Of a DNA stretch of 32,201 nt, positions 9,455 to 32,016 are shown piece after piece. Positions within the stretch are counted from its first letter, which is position 1; every line of letters starts with the position of its first letter. The notes under the pieces are model-generated. The model was not told the DNA's origin, did no database searches, and saw only the letters and a list, made by a program, of their open reading frames with translations. This stretch comes from Schlesneria paludicola DSM 18645 (GTDB lineage Bacteria; Planctomycetota; Planctomycetia; Planctomycetales; Planctomycetaceae), in assembly GCA_945869955.1 (NCBI GenBank), contig CAMBQP010000051.1, positions 1 through 32,201 on the forward strand, given 5' to 3'. Made by a program: the position numbers and the translations under genes.

Positions 9455-9780
9455 ATCAGTGCAGTCAAAACAAATAGGTCTCGGGCAATTCGTCGTGTTC
9501 TCGACGGCAGAATACAGACTGATCCAGCCTCTCAGGTCGTAAGTTCGCTGTTGGGTGACAGGTGCGAAGATCGGGGATGTCGTCTGGGTAGGAAAAGAGT
9601 TAACAGTACAAATCGGGGTCTCTGTCTGCTGCGAGTTCGCAGATACGGATCCTGAAAATCCCCAAGCAACATCTATGGGGTACGACGAGAATCCCAGTTA
9701 GTCGACAGCGTTACACCGCCAACGCGAGCAGGGTACAAGCCAAGGGGTGGGCTGACCGTGGGGACACCTGGCTCACTTAC
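9455..9780. other. Gene-free stretch before the 230-bp repeats
   Basis: I see no coding sequence here that resembles a known family. The short open frames lack a Shine-Dalgarno and have unstructured, Arg/Ser-rich translations. The stretch leads directly into the first 230-bp repeat and may be degraded repeat or transposon-related sequence. Confidence 0.4.
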
Positions 9781-10010
9781 GGGTCAAACGATCGGATCGC
9801 TCGTGTGTCGCATGTCGTTGATCCGCAAAGTTTAACCGCGCCTCGAAGAGAAGCGCGTTAACCGGCAGCCCTGCACCAACCCGAGGTGTCTTTGCACGTT
9901 TGATCATTGACGAACTCATCGACCGTACGTTTCCACGCCGAGACAATATCGATGCCCGGAAACGGCCGAAGAGGTCGGCTGAACACCGACCCGCCTGCGC
10001 CGATGGCTAC
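9781..10010 (+). repeat. 230-bp repeat, copy 1 (complete)
   Basis: Complete unit running from GGGTCAAACG to CGATGGCTAC, where copy 2 starts head-to-tail. It contains several potential hairpins: GGATC/GATCC around CGCTCGTGTGTCG; TTAACCGCGC/GCGCGTTAA; a CACCA/TGGTG-like pair near 9877-9890, weakened here by one base; and GGTCGG-CTGAACA-CCGACC. Reading the reverse strand gives an Arg-rich open frame that recurs in other copies. Confidence 0.85.
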
Positions 10011-10167
10011 GGGTCAAACGGTCGGATCGCTCGTGTGTCGCATGTCGTTGATCCGCAAAGTTTAACCGCGCCTCGAAGAGAAGCGCGTTAACCGGCACCC
10101 CTGCACCAACCCGTGGTGTCTTTGCACGTTTGAGCATTGCGAGCCTCGTTGACGGCGGTTTCCAATA
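10011..10167 (+). repeat. 230-bp repeat, copy 2 (truncated at its right end)
   Basis: Follows copy 1 in tandem with very few differences up to about 10139, then decays gradually. TTGACGGCGGTTTCCA still aligns with the equivalent part of copy 1. The last roughly 70 bases of the unit are missing, and the transposase gene region begins there. Confidence 0.8.
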
Positions 10168-10185
10168 CATCAAACACACCAATTA

Positions 10186-10806
10186 TTAGTGGTAGGCGAC
10201 CCTGCCCGATTCAAGACCGCGATACGGTGCCACCCATGACCATTGCTGCATTGGCTTTCCTTCAAGAATTGGATTTTGTTCCACATATCGAATTGCATTC
10301 GAAATTGCCTCATCGTGATCGAGATAGACCTTCCAACGACTATGTGCCCAAACGGAACGGAATCGACCGTCCGATTGCAGGTGCTGCATGGGATGCCGAC
10401 AGTCTATCACCAATTGTCGAGTGGCAGCACCTTTGAGCAGCGTCGCGATTTGTTCAACCTTGTAGTGATGGCGAGCGATCACTAAATGAGTGTGTTGGGG
10501 CATGATCGCACAGGCCCAGATTGTATACCCATTTTTTTTAACAAGAGTCGCAAATCCCTCGGCAATCGATTCTTTTTGGTCATCTGTGAGTGTCACCGCT
10601 GGATACACCAGCGCCCGTTGAGCCGCGTTTCGTGCTGCCACTTCTCGGGGCGTCAATTCGGACAATAATTTTCTCGAGAGCGTCCGACGTGGATGGCCAA
10701 ATTGAACAAGCTCCCATCGCCCCACAAAATCCGACCAACTTCCCCGAGGATCGTTCGGAAGCCAATAGCCATACATGGTCAGAATCACGTGATACCCGTG
10801 GATCAT
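10186..10806 (-). CDS. RAYT-type (REP-associated, IS200-like) tyrosine transposase
   Basis: Single-domain Y1 HUH-type transposase of 206 aa from the ATG at 10806; an upstream TTG at 10815 would add three residues. The metal-binding pair is His105 and His107 in IMPQHTHLVIA, with Thr in the middle where most relatives have a hydrophobic residue. The nucleophile is Tyr174 in AIRYVEQNPI, a form typical of the REP-associated group. The N-terminus GYHVILTMYGYWLPNDPRGS is the shape seen in planctomycete IS200-like proteins. These enzymes act on hairpin-forming single-stranded DNA and are usually single-copy and domesticated. Here the gene lies between two blocks of a 230-bp hairpin-rich repeat, in reverse orientation to them. 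The frame is intact with no frameshift. Whether it still mobilises DNA is unknown. Confidence 0.85.
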   Translation of the reverse strand: MIHGYHVILTMYGYWLPNDPRGSWSDFVGRWELVQFGHPRRTLSRKLLSELTPREVAARNAAQRALVYPAVTLTDDQKESIAEGFATLVKKNGYTIWACAIMPQHTHLVIARHHYKVEQIATLLKGAATRQLVIDCRHPMQHLQSDGRFRSVWAHSRWKVYLDHDEAISNAIRYVEQNPILEGKPMQQWSWVAPYRGLESGRVAYH

Positions 10807-10901
10807 TTTCGTCAATCACCCATTACAAAACCGAGTTGGTCACCAAAAATCAACCGACAGCATTGCAGGGTAGCAAGACGTGACACAAAAACAGTGTCGC
10901 C

Positions 10902-11081
10902 GTTTAACCGCGCCTCGAAGAGAATCGCGTCAACCGGCAGCCCTGCCCTACCCAAGGTGTCATTGCACATTTGAGCATTGACGACTTAGTCGCCGATAAT
11001 TTTCTACCTCGAGCTGAAATCGATGTCCAGAGACGGCCGAAGAGGTCGGCTGAACACCGACCCGCCTGCGCCGATGGCTGC
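10902..11081 (+). repeat. 230-bp repeat, copy 3 (truncated at its left end)
   Basis: Begins abruptly at GTTTAACCGCGCC, about 50 bases into the unit, and runs to the junction with copy 4. It is more diverged than the others (AGAATCGCGTCAACC replaces AGAAGCGCGTTAACC, weakening that stem), but keeps the perfect GGTCGG/CCGACC hairpin. It is the first copy on the right side of the transposase gene. Confidence 0.8.
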
Positions 11082-11311
11082 GGGTAAAACGGTTGGATCG
11101 CTCGTGTGTCGCATGTTGTTGATCCGCAAAGTTTAACCGCGCCTCGAAGAGAAGCGCGTTAACCGGCACCCCTGCACCAACCCGTGGTGTCATTGCACGT
11201 TTGACCATTGACGAACTAGTCGACCGTATGTTTCCACGCCGAGATGAAACCAACCCCCAGAGACGGCCGAAGAGGTCGGCTGAACACCGACCCGCCTGCG
11301 CCGATGGCTAC
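11082..11311 (+). repeat. 230-bp repeat, copy 4 (complete)
   Basis: Complete unit of the same 230-base period, starting GGGTAAAACGG and ending at CGATGGCTAC. It retains TTAACCGCGC/GCGCGTTAA, CACCA-ACCCG-TGGTG and GGTCGG/CCGACC. Confidence 0.85.
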
Positions 11312-11360
11312 GGGTCAAACGGTTGGATCGCTCGTTTTAATCATGCTGTTGGGCCGCAAT
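11312..11360 (+). repeat. 230-bp repeat, copy 5 (remnant)
   Basis: The first 27 bases (GGGTCAAACGGTTGGATCGC and on) match copy 4. The next 20 or so are only loosely similar (ATGCTGTTGGGCCGCAA). The array ends here, shortly before the 3' flank of the TIR-STAND-FGE gene. Confidence 0.6.
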
Positions 11361-11546: not shown

Positions 11547-14500
11547 CTACTCGCTGGAAGGAACTGCGGCCACACGAAAGCCCAGGCTGCTGTTCCGGAG
11601 GTCCGGAGTGCTCCAGAAGCGGATCGCCGAGCGGCAATTGGACGCTCCGCTGCTCCAGCAACCGCCCCGGCTCACCCGGCCCGAGCCCGACTTAGCACCG
11701 ATTGGATCTACGACAGCCTGCCCACCATAGTCGTCATGCCAATCGTGACACCATTCCAAAACGTTTCCATGCATGTCAAACAAACCGTATCCGTTTGGTA
11801 ATTTCGCGCCACTCAACGTGGCTTGATTTTCGGACAATGGCATCCAGGTCCCATATTTCCGCGATAAGACTTCTTGATTGCCACTACTATAAAATGTCGT
11901 CGTCCCCGACCGACATCCAAATTCCCATTCCGCTTCCGTCGGTAAGCGGTATCCAGTGCCATGAGGAACCAGTTCCCACGTGTCCCATTCTTCGCCCGCA
12001 ACTTTCTCCTTCTCGCCGGTTCGGACATAAGCAGGATCGCGACCGTTCTGCTTACTCAGCCAATTACAATACAGCACCGCGTCATACCAACGGACCTGCT
12101 GAACCGGGTAACCCTCGCCCGGGCTGTAATTCTTTTGAGCCCCGATCCAACCCTGAGGCTTTTCTGAATCGGGATAGTCCCGATCGTTCACGAACTGCCG
12201 AAACTGCAACACCGTGATCTCGCGATCGCTCAGGTAATAAGCCTGACTCAACGTGACCGACTGCTCTACGAACTCACTACCAGGGGAATCTTTCCGAACA
12301 AACATCCCCGGCTCGATCTTGAGCATCGTGATTCCCTGCGAATTGCGAAACCAGCTTTCCTTTGCCCGTGGCAGACCCGGTTCCGATTTCTTCAACTCTG
12401 GTTCAGGGACACCCCACTGACGGAGCGCCCAACCGGCAGAACTATGCAGCACAGACGCGTCAGCGGCTACATACCAATCCTCGAACAGCGCAACCCACAG
12501 CGACTTGAAATCCGCTCGCAGACTCTCTTTTTTGATCGCACCCACCCCACAAGCCAAGGCCGAGCGAAGGGGGACATCCTCGGCGTTTTTTGCCTGTTTC
12601 AAGAGCTTCCCAAGATCGCCATGCCAATCCGGAAACCGATCAATGAACAGCGTCCGCTCGATCGGGTCGGGACGATCTTGAATCTGACACATGTCACTCG
12701 CAATCGTGGCGTCTCCCAAATGCAAGCCGATCACCGCCAAACGACATTTCCACTGCCACTGCTGATTCATCGGTGCGTAAATCCGCGTTTCGCCTTCCTT
12801 GGGAGGTACTGCCGGAGTGTTTGATTTGGCCGCTAAGGTCGCCTGATCGGCAAGCTCGTGAAGCCTCGGCAACGCTCGTTCGCTCACATGGCCCAAGGCC
12901 GTGACCAAATTATCCACTTCATCCGCGTTCGCCGTTTCGATGTACGAACAAAGTTTTTCCACATCCCCCTGCCCAAACGCGGCGAATGCATACGCGAGAC
13001 TTTGCTCTCCCCGCTCATTTGCCGCCGCACTGACCACCTGCGCCTGCTTTTCCAACTCGGCAATCACCTGACGCGTCGGATACTTTTTGTCCAGCAAATC
13101 TTGAATCGGGTTGGCTGTCCATTTTCCAGAACTGTTCGCAATCTTATTCACTAACTTATCGAGATCGTTTTTCCGCTGGATCTGCTGGTAACTAAACCAC
13201 CCACTCCCCAACAACAACACTCCCGCACTGACCAGCAGCCACTGATTCCGTTTCCGAGACTTTTCCACTGCCAGACTGCGGTGCAGATAGGTCCGCTGAT
13301 CCGGACCCAGATCCTCCTGCCGTGCAGGATAGAACTCCCGTGCGTTCCGCAGCGCACTTCCACGCAGCAATGCGGCAGCCCCGTCCCGCTGCCACTCGTC
13401 CAACTTCAATTCCAACTGGGTCCGCCAGAGCAAAAACCTCCGGTCCTGATTCACCCATCCCTTCAAACGCCCCCACCGACGTAACAACTCTTCATGGGCC
13501 ACTTCCACCGTCATCCCGCTGGGAACGCCCTGACTCGCTGCGGCATCACTCGGCCCCGCATCGGTTACCTCCGCGGTCAGGTCGAGAGATCCCTCGCCCC
13601 CTCCACCCGCTCCAGACGTGATTAACAACCGCTTGTCGGCCAGATGACGCGCCACGCGGCGGGAGGTTTCATCCAGTTCGCTCAGTGGAATTCGTCGTCG
13701 CGTATCATTTTCCGAACGGGAACCGGCCCGAACCAGTTTGCGAAACAGTAGCGGACAGGCTTGCTGCTCGTCCTGCGGTAACTCGCCATAAACCTCTTCC
13801 GCATACGTGGCAATCGCGCGACTCAGTGGCCCCCCTGTTTCGGCCTGAAGAGCCGCTCCCTGCGAAGCCTCTTGTCGGCCAAGATTTTCATATCCGGCAT
13901 GCGTCATTTGCGAAACCGTACGGCGTTTCCACAGCTCTTCCAATGCAAATTCCAGCAGCGGCAGATTCCCTTGTTCCGCCCCCGCTTCCGCCAGAATCCG
14001 GTCGACCAACCCCTCCTGAAACGTCAGCCCGACGTTACTCGCCGGCCCCTCGATTATTGCACGCAACTCGTCGACGTTCATCGGCCCGAGATCCAGGTGG
14101 CTGTTCGAGATACGGTCGAGTAACTGTCGGTCCTGCAGAATCTCGGTATAAAAATCCCCGCGAACGGTCATCACGACCGACAGGGGTGAATCCTTGCGGG
14201 AGGTCGCCGCCAGCAGTTCTTGCACAAACCGCATCCGCCGCTGGGGATTTTCACAACTGGTATAAAGCTCTTCCCACTGATCGACGAACAACAGCAAGCG
14301 GGTGGTCCCCGGCTGCTGTCGTAAGACAGCATTCACGCGACCCCACAGCGGCACCACCGGATCGACCTGCTCCAAATCCCGAGCAAACTTATGCAGTTCC
14401 TCTTCCAGGGGCGTATGTGAAAGATGAGGATCGCTTAAAGGGACGAGCGCCGAAGCCAACGAATAGAGCGGATCGAGATGCGGAACCATGCGGACCACAT

Positions 14501-15155
14501 CCCAGACCGGCCCCTTGCCAAAAGTTCGCAAATGAGGAACCAATCCGGCACTCACCAGTGACGACTTGCCGCTCCCCGAGGCACCAATCACCGCCACGAA
14601 CGATTGTTTTTCGACCAGGTCAATCAATTTCTGTTTGTAGACGTCACGGCCGAAGAAGAACGAGGCATCTTCTTCCCGGAAGGCGAACAGACCTCGGTAG
14701 GGGCAGATCAAGTTCTGGGGCTGCAGACCATTCCGATCGACCGATTCGCCCCGAATCGCCGCTGCCAATTTATCCAGCGCGACCTCATGGTCCGCTTCAT
14801 TCCGCAGATCAATCCACATCAATTGCTTCAGAAACCCCAAGGGGGGTTCGCAACCGGGGAGCAACACAGGAATCACGGGAAAGTCATTGCGTCCGGCGAG
14901 TTGATCGAGCGCCCAGGCCCGTTCCCGCTGCTGCCAAGGGCCCATGGGATTCGGCCCCAGAAAAATGGCGACGGCGCGACTGGATTGCAGCGCCTGTTCC
15001 AGCGCCACCACCCAATCGTGTCCCGGCGAGAGATACCATCGATCGACGAACGCCGAACGCTGGCGCGACTTTAAGGCATTGGCCACGCGTTCCACCTGGA
15101 TATGATCCAAGGAGTTGTAGCTCAAAAACACGTCATACAACGGATCGCCAGCCAT
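11547..15155 (-). CDS. TIR - STAND NTPase - FGE (formylglycine-generating enzyme-like) fusion protein
   Basis: 1202-aa signalling or immune-type protein, numbered from the ATG at 15155; a TTG at 15233 would add 26 residues of poor quality. Residues 5-115 form a TIR domain (YDVFLSYNSLD), with Glu78 in GPWQQRE at the position of the NADase catalytic glutamate. A STAND/AAA-type NTPase follows: the lead CPYRGLFAFREEDASFFFGR, Walker A GASGSGKSS at 191-199 and Walker B LLLFVDQWEEL. A single membrane segment is near 639-657 (WLLVSAGVLLLGSGWF). From about 944 there is an FGE/sulfatase-modifying domain of C-type lectin fold (MLKIEPGMF, YRLPTEAEWEFGCRSG, GNVLEWCHDW, LGFRVA). Of the two catalytic cysteines of true FGE, only the second is kept (NCRS); the first position is Ser. 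The domain is therefore probably a ligand sensor rather than an enzyme. Its last 100 bases resemble a DGR variable region (separate entry). Confidence 0.9.
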   Translation of the reverse strand: MAGDPLYDVFLSYNSLDHIQVERVANALKSRQRSAFVDRWYLSPGHDWVVALEQALQSSRAVAIFLGPNPMGPWQQRERAWALDQLAGRNDFPVIPVLLPGCEPPLGFLKQLMWIDLRNEADHEVALDKLAAAIRGESVDRNGLQPQNLICPYRGLFAFREEDASFFFGRDVYKQKLIDLVEKQSFVAVIGASGSGKSSLVSAGLVPHLRTFGKGPVWDVVRMVPHLDPLYSLASALVPLSDPHLSHTPLEEELHKFARDLEQVDPVVPLWGRVNAVLRQQPGTTRLLLFVDQWEELYTSCENPQRRMRFVQELLAATSRKDSPLSVVMTVRGDFYTEILQDRQLLDRISNSHLDLGPMNVDELRAIIEGPASNVGLTFQEGLVDRILAEAGAEQGNLPLLEFALEELWKRRTVSQMTHAGYENLGRQEASQGAALQAETGGPLSRAIATYAEEVYGELPQDEQQACPLLFRKLVRAGSRSENDTRRRIPLSELDETSRRVARHLADKRLLITSGAGGGGEGSLDLTAEVTDAGPSDAAASQGVPSGMTVEVAHEELLRRWGRLKGWVNQDRRFLLWRTQLELKLDEWQRDGAAALLRGSALRNAREFYPARQEDLGPDQRTYLHRSLAVEKSRKRNQWLLVSAGVLLLGSGWFSYQQIQRKNDLDKLVNKIANSSGKWTANPIQDLLDKKYPTRQVIAELEKQAQVVSAAANERGEQSLAYAFAAFGQGDVEKLCSYIETANADEVDNLVTALGHVSERALPRLHELADQATLAAKSNTPAVPPKEGETRIYAPMNQQWQWKCRLAVIGLHLGDATIASDMCQIQDRPDPIERTLFIDRFPDWHGDLGKLLKQAKNAEDVPLRSALACGVGAIKKESLRADFKSLWVALFEDWYVAADASVLHSSAGWALRQWGVPEPELKKSEPGLPRAKESWFRNSQGITMLKIEPGMFVRKDSPGSEFVEQSVTLSQAYYLSDREITVLQFRQFVNDRDYPDSEKPQGWIGAQKNYSPGEGYPVQQVRWYDAVLYCNWLSKQNGRDPAYVRTGEKEKVAGEEWDTWELVPHGTGYRLPTEAEWEFGCRSGTTTFYSSGNQEVLSRKYGTWMPLSENQATLSGAKLPNGYGLFDMHGNVLEWCHDWHDDYGGQAVVDPIGAKSGSGRVSRGGCWSSGASNCRSAIRFWSTPDLRNSSLGFRVAAVPSSE
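11571..11670 (-). other. Candidate DGR variable region at the 3' end of the FGE domain
   Basis: Encodes RGGCW through LGFRV, the standard site for DGR diversification in FGE-type target proteins. The constant positions (RGG, W, CRSA, R, P, R, LGFR) are kept. At the variable positions the codons are nearly all NNC/NNT: AGC AGC, TCC AAT, ATC, TTC, AGC, ACT, GAC CTC, AAC AGC AGC. That is what adenine mutagenesis of AAC/AAT template codons would leave. Normal C-ending codon bias could contribute. No reverse transcriptase, Avd or template repeat is in the window, so the call rests on pattern only. Confidence 0.45.
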
Positions 15156-15274
15156 CCCATCCCCGCACTTTCCGCAACATAAAAACGGATCACACAACGG
15201 CAACCCGATCGTAGCGAATTGCCCAGCAAACAAAAATCGGACCCAAAACCCCAGAAAAATCAGGCAGCCCCCAG

Positions 15275-31673: not shown

Positions 31674-31775
31674 TCCGAGATTTCTTTTGAACAACAGACC
31701 GAATTCCCAAACATCGAAATCACCTGCGATATTCCCACATCCACATCCGATTCACAAAACATCCATCGCGACCAA

Positions 31776-31823
31776 GGAGGAAAGGGGACTGACTCCGTCC
31801 GCGGTGTCTGTCCCCTTTCCTCC
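31776..31823 (+). repeat. Hairpin array unit A
   Basis: A perfect 14-bp stem GGAGGAAAGGGGAC / GTCCCCTTTCCTCC closing a 20-base loop that begins TGACTCCGTCCGCGG. It is followed by the linker GGCGCGACCAGCTCGTCGCG, itself able to form a CGCGAC/GTCGCG hairpin. Confidence 0.85.
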
Positions 31824-31843
31824 CGGCGCGACCAGCTCGTCGC

Positions 31844-31883
31844 GTGAAAGAACGGGGACCGACTCCGTCCGCGGTGTCTGTCC
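31844..31883 (+). repeat. Hairpin array unit B (right arm lost)
   Basis: The left arm GTGAAAGAACGGGGAC and the shared loop are present. The right side continues GTCCACAGCGCGACC, so the stem cannot form fully. It looks truncated or recombined into the next unit. Confidence 0.75.
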
Positions 31884-31896
31884 ACAGCGCGACCAG

Positions 31897-31944
31897 GGAG
31901 GAAAGGGGACTGACTCCGTCTGCGGTGTCTGTCCCCTTTCCTCC
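31897..31944 (+). repeat. Hairpin array unit C
   Basis: Same stem as unit A, 121 bases further on, with one base different in the loop (CCGTCTGCGG). The same CGCGACCAGCTCGTCGCG linker follows, so A+B and C+D form a 121-bp direct repeat. Confidence 0.85.
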
Positions 31945-31964
31945 CGGCGCGACCAGCTCGTCGC

Positions 31965-32016
31965 GTGGAAGAACGGGAACTGACTCCGTCCGCGGTGTCT
32001 GTCCCCGTTCTTCCAC
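31965..32016 (+). repeat. Hairpin array unit D
   Basis: The stem GTGGAAGAACGGGAAC / GTCCCCGTTCTTCCAC has one mismatch in 16 bp. The arms are completely different from those of units A and C, yet the loop is the same. Confidence 0.85.

Follow-up and report, generated by a model that had tools for sequence, protein, structure and literature searches.

A RAYT transposase gene within a tandem array of its probable cognate REPINs in Schlesneria paludicola, and a candidate REP super-family of planctomycetes

The stretch of DNA analyzed here (the window, 32,201 nucleotides) is the whole of contig C51 from a 6.25-Mb genome of Schlesneria paludicola assembled in 394 contigs, and it contains an intact RAYT gene among copies of a 230-bp repeat. 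This locus is very likely a REPtron: the REPINs cognate to a domesticated IS200/IS605-like RAYT form a tandem array, and the RAYT gene lies inside it. The RAYT very probably recognizes the paired hairpin repeats surrounding it. The layout is the ordinary one of a REPtron with tandem REPINs, while the REP tag and the hairpin geometry differ from those described.

Five copies or fragments of the 230-bp unit were located around the RAYT gene, as had been proposed in an earlier sequence-only reading of the window, and both their coordinates and their matches within the genome bore this out. With 9780-10009 as the reference unit, the second copy (10010-10139) corresponded to unit positions 1-130 at 97% identity, the third (10902-11079) to unit positions 51-229 at 85%, and the fourth (11081-11310) was 91% identical; the fifth is represented by its beginning (Table 1). 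The proposed arrangement of two copies on one side of the gene and three on the other was also confirmed, with the right end missing from copy 2 and the left end from copy 3. The array copies matched their own genome with E-values of 8.5e-117 to 3.6e-51, hence the repeat is not a product of chance.

Table 1. Coordinates of the RAYT gene, REPs, and REPINs in the window.
Feature	Positions	Strand	Remarks
Truncated B REP, head only, left array edge	9780..9789	-	GTTTGACCCGTA, unrelated sequence after
REPIN 1, A head > ... < B head, 190 bp	9830..10019	.	heads at 9830 (+) and, by its end, 10019 (-)
A REP, GTTTAAC-5 nt-CTC-GAA-GAG	9830..9850	+	head and triloop hairpin frame
Second hairpin within the B module, GGTCGG-N7-CCGACC	9973..9991	+	compensatory changes in relatives
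B REP, GTTTGAC-5 nt-GCC-ATC-GGC	9999..10019	-	head and triloop hairpin frame
Truncated REPIN 2, A module only, cut right before the RAYT region	10060..10139	+	unit positions 51-130
RAYT (TnpA_REP-like HUH Y1 transposase), 209 aa, intact	10186..10815	-	Pfam Y1_Tnp; H108/H110, Y177, N181
REPIN 3	10902..11090	.	A head 10902 (+); B head a GTTTTAC variant, end 11090 (-)
REPIN 4	11131..11320	.	A head 11131 (+); B head end 11320 (-)
Beginning of fifth 230-bp copy	11311..11335 (25 bases; end approximate)	+	stops in spacer

Each 230-bp unit was found to hold two short inverted REPs of about 21 nt, A and B, approximately 190 bp apart. Both match one frame, in which a GTTT[AG]AC head is followed by 5 nt and then by a hairpin with a 3-bp stem and a triloop: module A reads GTTTAAC-CGCGC-CTC-GAA-GAG in full, and module B reads GTTTGAC-CCGTA-GCC-ATC-GGC on the opposite strand. 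The window heads form inverted pairs facing outward, as in a REPIN. Since these pairs recur with about 190 bp between outward heads, the 230-bp period is one REPIN (the A REP, an interior of about 150 bp, and the inverted B REP) and a spacer of about 40 bp, in tandem. The earlier reading had further considered the 230-bp multi-hairpin unit a different kind of partner repeat. Its identification of the RAYT and of a real partnership between RAYT and repeat stood, but this last idea failed, because the unit consists of two inverted REPs of about 21 nt in the same format as the REPs of relatives, and because tandem REPIN clusters beside RAYTs have already been described (PMC3116915).

The RAYT open reading frame as called starts with TTG at 10815; translation probably starts at 10806, because the Met at residue 4 is conserved in relatives. 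The protein scored 27.9 bits against Pfam Y1_Tnp, above the cut-off of 23. Its best NCBIfam match was REP_Tyr_transpos (E 2.5e-12), at 46.9 of the 80 bits of that model's cut-off, which is a model threshold and not a biological definition; the RAYT is a divergent relative of the model. Among 81 aligned RAYTs, H108, Y177, and N181 were present in all 81 and H110 in 80, so that the HUH motif, the catalytic Tyr, and the Asn at Y+4 that mark the RAYT family were all recovered. The tyrosine motif of this clade is Y-V-E-x-N-P, with P182 (Y+5) in 79 of the 81. An AlphaFold2 model (pLDDT 80.2, pTM 0.80; residues 20-36 and 40-47 unreliable) resembles IS200/IS605 TnpA and E. coli TnpA_REP (PDB 4er8), and its 30 best Foldseek matches were all TnpA-type transposases, with 4er8 at rank 13, in agreement with a predicted Y1 transposase fold.

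The placement of IS200/IS605 transposases above 4er8 by Foldseek could be taken to mean that the RAYT is simply an ordinary insertion sequence of the IS200/IS605 type moving as a unit, with the repeats as its subterminal hairpins and leftover solo ends. The same explanation would fit the occurrence of RAYT and repeats at different places in three genomes of the genus, designated G000, G002 (two copies), and G006. By sequence, however, the best PDB match was 4er8 (E 3.2e-6), ahead of the top IS200/IS605 transposase (E 1.9e-4), and the residue at Y+4 is N in 81/81, as in TnpA_REP, where IS608 has Q (PMC6006769). Copy numbers also argue against it, with one RAYT (two in G002) to 29-113 repeat copies per genome, as do the several REPs found on each side of the RAYT at loci of this clade, where such an element would have one hairpin per end. 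An ordinary insertion sequence is therefore considered improbable.

The pairing of RAYT and repeat extended to other planctomycetes. The closest RAYT relatives among the records collected came from two uncultured Schlesneria metagenome-assembled genomes, and the three other close RAYTs of the genus (two in G002 and one in G006, at 72-75% identity) carried the repeat on both sides. The genes neighboring the window RAYT were unmatched in the stretches examined around these three loci, where different genes adjoin. For a broader comparison, a profile was built from 13 RAYTs (the window and 12 loci from relatives), and the best 80 of 406 confirmed loci among 425 candidates were retained; 78 were usable, with both flanks of at least 60 bp, and two had flanks that were too short. 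The left and right 300 bp shared a repeat at 66 of the 78 loci and at two of 231 control positions, which were pseudo-genes of equal length elsewhere in the same loci; flank-to-flank similarity was not found at the remaining 12 of the 78. In the profile set itself, which partly overlaps the 80 loci, left-right similarity was observed at 13/13 (E <= 1e-3). The earlier reading had named a RAYT without the repeat in most relatives as evidence against its proposal. The reverse was observed, with the repeat at 4/4 close homologues (window included) and some flanking repeat at the great majority of clade loci. By sequence comparison, the pairing is no accident of one locus.

Heads inverted with respect to each other beside RAYTs were arranged as >< pairs in 62 cases and as <> pairs in 17. 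In the single-contig genome G106, for example, GTTTAACCCGCAGCCGAAGGCGCAGGCG-type REPs form one inverted pair on either side of the RAYT, and the B profile of the window also finds them, weakly. Quite a few Y1 genes of this clade or related to it, such as those of loci L012, L027, and L130, had at least one in-frame stop, which suggests ongoing RAYT decay.

The flanks of the 80 loci were searched for shared motifs. In counts of 8-mers, CGTTTAAC ranked first and CGTTTAGC was within the top six. The head GTTTA[AG]C occurred within 200 bp on the left at 62, on the right at 54, and on both sides at 53 of the 80 loci, and its density was 6.76 per kb near the RAYT versus 0.164 per kb beyond 500 bp, an enrichment of about 41-fold. 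In contrast, GTAG (5.41 near versus 3.58 per kb far) and GGAG (7.88 versus 6.96 per kb) were hardly enriched. A canonical GT[AG]G tag at the hairpin foot was thus not found, as judged on the GTAG form alone. In the close relatives of the window, the clearest change in the A 21-mer was the middle base of the loop, which is GAA in the window, GCA in G002 and G006, and GTA in the second G002 locus.

A hairpin was found at a fixed distance from this head. For 185 of 244 distinct heads, the 40 bases that follow folded better than the 40 that precede. When all offsets were scanned, a hairpin with a 3-bp stem and a triloop began exactly 12 nt from the first base of the head for 163 of 230 heads, at 48 of 63 loci (window included), and every other offset accounted for 0 to 25 heads. 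With a loop of 3 or 4 allowed, the hairpin was present for 178/230 heads and at 164 of 4,800 random positions. A GNA loop with a C-G closing pair was frequent (134 of 227 heads, offset 13-15); mini-hairpins of the d(C-GNA-G) type are notably stable in DNA. Both of the pairs adjoining the closing pair were complementary in 40 of 46 distinct cases, while shuffling one side gave a mean of 18.9 and a maximum of 28 (0/2000 as high). For this test, offsets 13-15 had been chosen after an earlier count; the all-offset scan is free of that choice. That first C-GNA-G count, with 37/61 stems fully paired against a shuffled mean of 14.8, was discarded as it mixed in spurious upstream matches. An outer REP stem was likewise dropped after swaps of 3' tails between loci, in which the native folds were better in only 19/39 (p = 0.59). 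Directly before the head, TC was present in 87 of the 163 hairpin-bearing cases, and this dinucleotide is a candidate site of cleavage.

A genome-wide search for the unit and for RAYT paralogues, which the earlier reading had recommended, returned 52 repeat matches and one copy of the RAYT, together with five other, more distant Y1 matches. The RAYT is hence flanked by REPs that are multicopy in their host genome, which is the defining feature of a REPtron. The matches resolved into modules A (unit positions 51-134) and B (188-230), which occurred singly, in the combinations A-B and B-A, and in tandem. In a manual count of the dispersed copies, the order <B..A> was observed at 13 loci and A>..<B at eight, so that what moved among them may be something other than the A>..<B REPIN. 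Beside RAYTs, A>..<B predominates, and either pairing may be the one that moves. In six stretches of this genome (L070, L073, L074, L078, L079, and L086), similarity extended well beyond B and A, to roughly 300 bp by eye. This subfamily is mostly of the <B..A> order with an extra hairpin-like stretch upstream of B, and its moved unit may be larger than a REPIN.

The window also contains a second palindromic repeat, GGGGACTGACTCCGTCYGCGGTGTCTGTCCCC, which occurs twice in a 121-bp tandem at 31767-32004. Variants were found in stretches L073, L078, and L092 of the same genome, and another lies beside a match to a different Y1 transposase in L015 (palindrome 203-234, Y1 match from 315); this palindrome may be the REP that belongs to a further RAYT of the genome. 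To the right of the array, the gene at 11547-15233 on the reverse strand encodes a fusion of TIR, nSTAND1, and FGE-sulfatase-like domains of 1228 aa, for which PADLOC returned weak matches only, and which is a possible signaling or defense protein.

Among 15 genomes of the genus, five carried the repeat. The A/B model copies numbered 32/29 in G000, 97/113 in G001, 78/96 in G002, 30/44 in G005, and 42/52 in G006, and the other ten had essentially none, apart from one marginal B match in G011 (E 9.9e-4). The clade RAYT was found in G000, G002 (two), and G006 only, that is, in 3/5 repeat-bearing genomes versus 0/10 others (p = 0.022). The earlier reading had held that a repeat equally abundant without such a RAYT would speak against the partnership. 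This was the case in two genomes, G001 and G005, where no clade RAYT was detected among matches listed to E = 10; G001 has the highest repeat number in the genus. These assemblies are fragmented (about 300 contigs in G001 and about 210 in G005). The contig starts examined, six from G001 and two from G005, all carried repeats, the contigs having been picked for matches near their ends, and the RAYT contigs of G002 and G006 stop no more than about 200 bp past the last flanking repeat or start within about 400 bp of the gene. A loss of the G001 and G005 RAYTs in assembly is possible. Remnants of the gene were found in G004 (32 C-terminal residues, 53%) and, as an N-terminal fragment (28%), in G022 of another genus, where the A core formed inverted pairs about 165-177 bp apart at two of three loci examined.

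The head variants followed the RAYT phylogeny. A tree of 81 rows, rooted at its midpoint, was split with support of 100/99 into a half of 45 (AAC heads in 40, AGC in two, and none in three) and a half of 36 (AGC in 23, none in 13, and AAC in zero), and the head labels required 12 changes on it versus 34.8 in shuffles. Linked inheritance of the gene and its flanking repeats would also sort the heads, and the sorting hence indicates a lasting partnership rather than recognition. Candidate residues for AAC versus AGC specificity, such as N173/R173, were dropped, as the AGC-headed exception L139 retains N. Locus L174 (WYBR01000033.1), titled Vicinamibacteraceae (Acidobacteriota), has a RAYT nested among those of planctomycetes, from either a transfer or a mislabeled metagenome-assembled genome (isolate name PLA1).

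Exact REP patterns were then searched in 297 genomes of the class. The pattern GTTTAAC-N4-AGCCGNAGGCG occurred in 24 genomes with 610 copies, and its reversed control once; GTTTAGC-N4-ANCCGNAGGNG occurred in 28 genomes with 937 copies, and its reversed control had a single occurrence in each of 15 genomes. At E <= 1e-30, the clade RAYT was present in 57 of the 297. With p-values that ignore kinship between genomes, it was found in 11/24 genomes with the AAC pattern versus 46/273 others (p = 0.0017), in 22/28 with the AGC pattern versus 35/269 others (p = 5.9e-13), and in 27/45 with either pattern versus 30/252 others (p = 1.9e-11). It was missing from 13 of the 24 genomes bearing the AAC pattern, and it was present in 14 of the 18 genomes with at least 20 REP copies. 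The window's own genome gave zero matches to the exact patterns because its A REP has a different stem and its B REP another loop, and the patterns miss such variants.

These distributions bear on the possibility that the repeats are MITE-like elements mobilized by another transposase, which cluster at the RAYT passively, for example through recombination between arrays. Such elements would account for G001 and G005, with many repeats and no clade RAYT detected, and other Y1 proteins are present in these genomes. However, the sorting of head types with the RAYT halves and the co-occurrence across the 297 genomes would be left unexplained, and this alternative is regarded as very improbable. 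The conservation of the hairpins raises another possibility, namely that the repeats serve as functional RNAs or in regulation, for instance as terminators or attenuators, with the RAYT in their cluster by happenstance. The inner hairpin of B covaries at two pairs (G-C/A-U in 19/13 and 26/6 of 34 sequences); RNAalifold on the A module gave nine pairs, none changed on both sides, and was not used as evidence. Against this, a search of Rfam identified no family at gathering score (RF02946, below threshold, reached 18.6 of 53.4 bits), the repeats lie beside RAYTs far more often than at control positions, and the head variants follow the RAYT tree. Chance placement among regulatory elements is thus the least probable of the alternatives, and an extremely unlikely one.

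As a REPtron, the locus shares several features with known systems. Like the E. coli TnpA_REP (4er8) REPtron and gammaproteobacterial RAYTs, it has a single-copy HUH Y1 protein with a Y...N motif and inverted short hairpin repeats that flank the gene and are dispersed in the genome, with one family per transposase. GTAG/GTGG REPs and their RAYTs have been described (PMC2817692), as have recognition determinants and a role of GTAG as guide (PMC8266576). In the gammaproteobacterial REPs, GT[AG]G is placed at the foot of a stem that is long or bulged; the window clade instead has a GTTTA[AG]C head, separated by 5 nt from a triloop hairpin of 3 bp. In Pseudomonas fluorescens SBW25, REPINs are the moving unit, and these inverted REP doublets occur in tandem copies that include their flanks and in clusters beside each RAYT (PMC3116915), much as in the window. 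The window REPIN is a heterodimer of A and B, with about 190 bp between ends where the SBW25 REPINs have about 71 bp, and it has an extra conserved interior hairpin.

Atypical flanking structures without GT[AG]G are known from two groups of TnpA_Y1, class 3, which is chiefly from Planctomycetes, Acidobacteria, and Proteobacteria, and subclass 2.6, which is mostly from Bacteroidetes (PMC6006769). Class 3 is characterized there by the motif YV[VI][AENY]EQ and the foot CnGA. The window clade has Y-V-E-x-N-P (N at Y+4 in all and P at Y+5 in nearly all aligned RAYTs) and the head GTTTA[AG]C, and by that motif it is not class 3. REPs have also been divided into GTAG and CGTC super-families, with GTAG repeats reported in the PVC superphylum (PMC3733652). 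The CGTC REPs and the TIRtrons of that study resemble the window clade in having REP-like repeats or long TIRs without GTAG, and TIRtrons flank RAYT-like genes; the CGTC REPs are reported there without a dedicated transposase, whereas the CGTTTA[AG]C tag of the window clade is accompanied by one.

The GTTTA[AG]C head and its hairpin geometry are apparently undescribed. No description of a GTTTAAC/GTTTAGC REP was found in open-licence full texts, and a listing in the supplementary tables of PMC6006769, where atypical structures are compiled, is possible. On balance, we favor the view that planctomycetes possess a third REP super-family beside GTAG and CGTC, with a (T)(C)GTTTA[AG]C tag, 5 nt to a mini-hairpin (a 3-bp stem, often with a C-GNA-G triloop), served by its own deep RAYT clade with AAC-reading and AGC-reading halves. 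If true, this would imply a guide rule unlike that of GTAG.

By analogy with the E. coli, Stenotrophomonas, and Marinomonas enzymes, the most likely mode of binding, cleavage, and mobility, with the head as guide, is as follows. The RAYT would bind REPs that become single-stranded, such as those on the lagging-strand template, and would recognize them by both the GTTTA[AG]C head and the small hairpin. It would then cut next to the REP with Y177 of its HUH active site and rejoin strands, such that REP or REPIN copies could be excised, copied, or recombined. In this manner, dozens of dispersed copies may have been seeded while the RAYT stayed single-copy.

The exact, low-background REP signature may be of use for planctomycetes, where few REPs are described in the searchable open literature. 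Only in a few GTAG systems is it understood how RAYTs choose REPs and the sites they cleave. The phylum-wide clade identified here has a longer and different head, a tiny hairpin at fixed spacing, and two natural variants that track the protein tree, and with its AAC and AGC heads and the corresponding protein halves, it represents a clean natural experiment on recognition.
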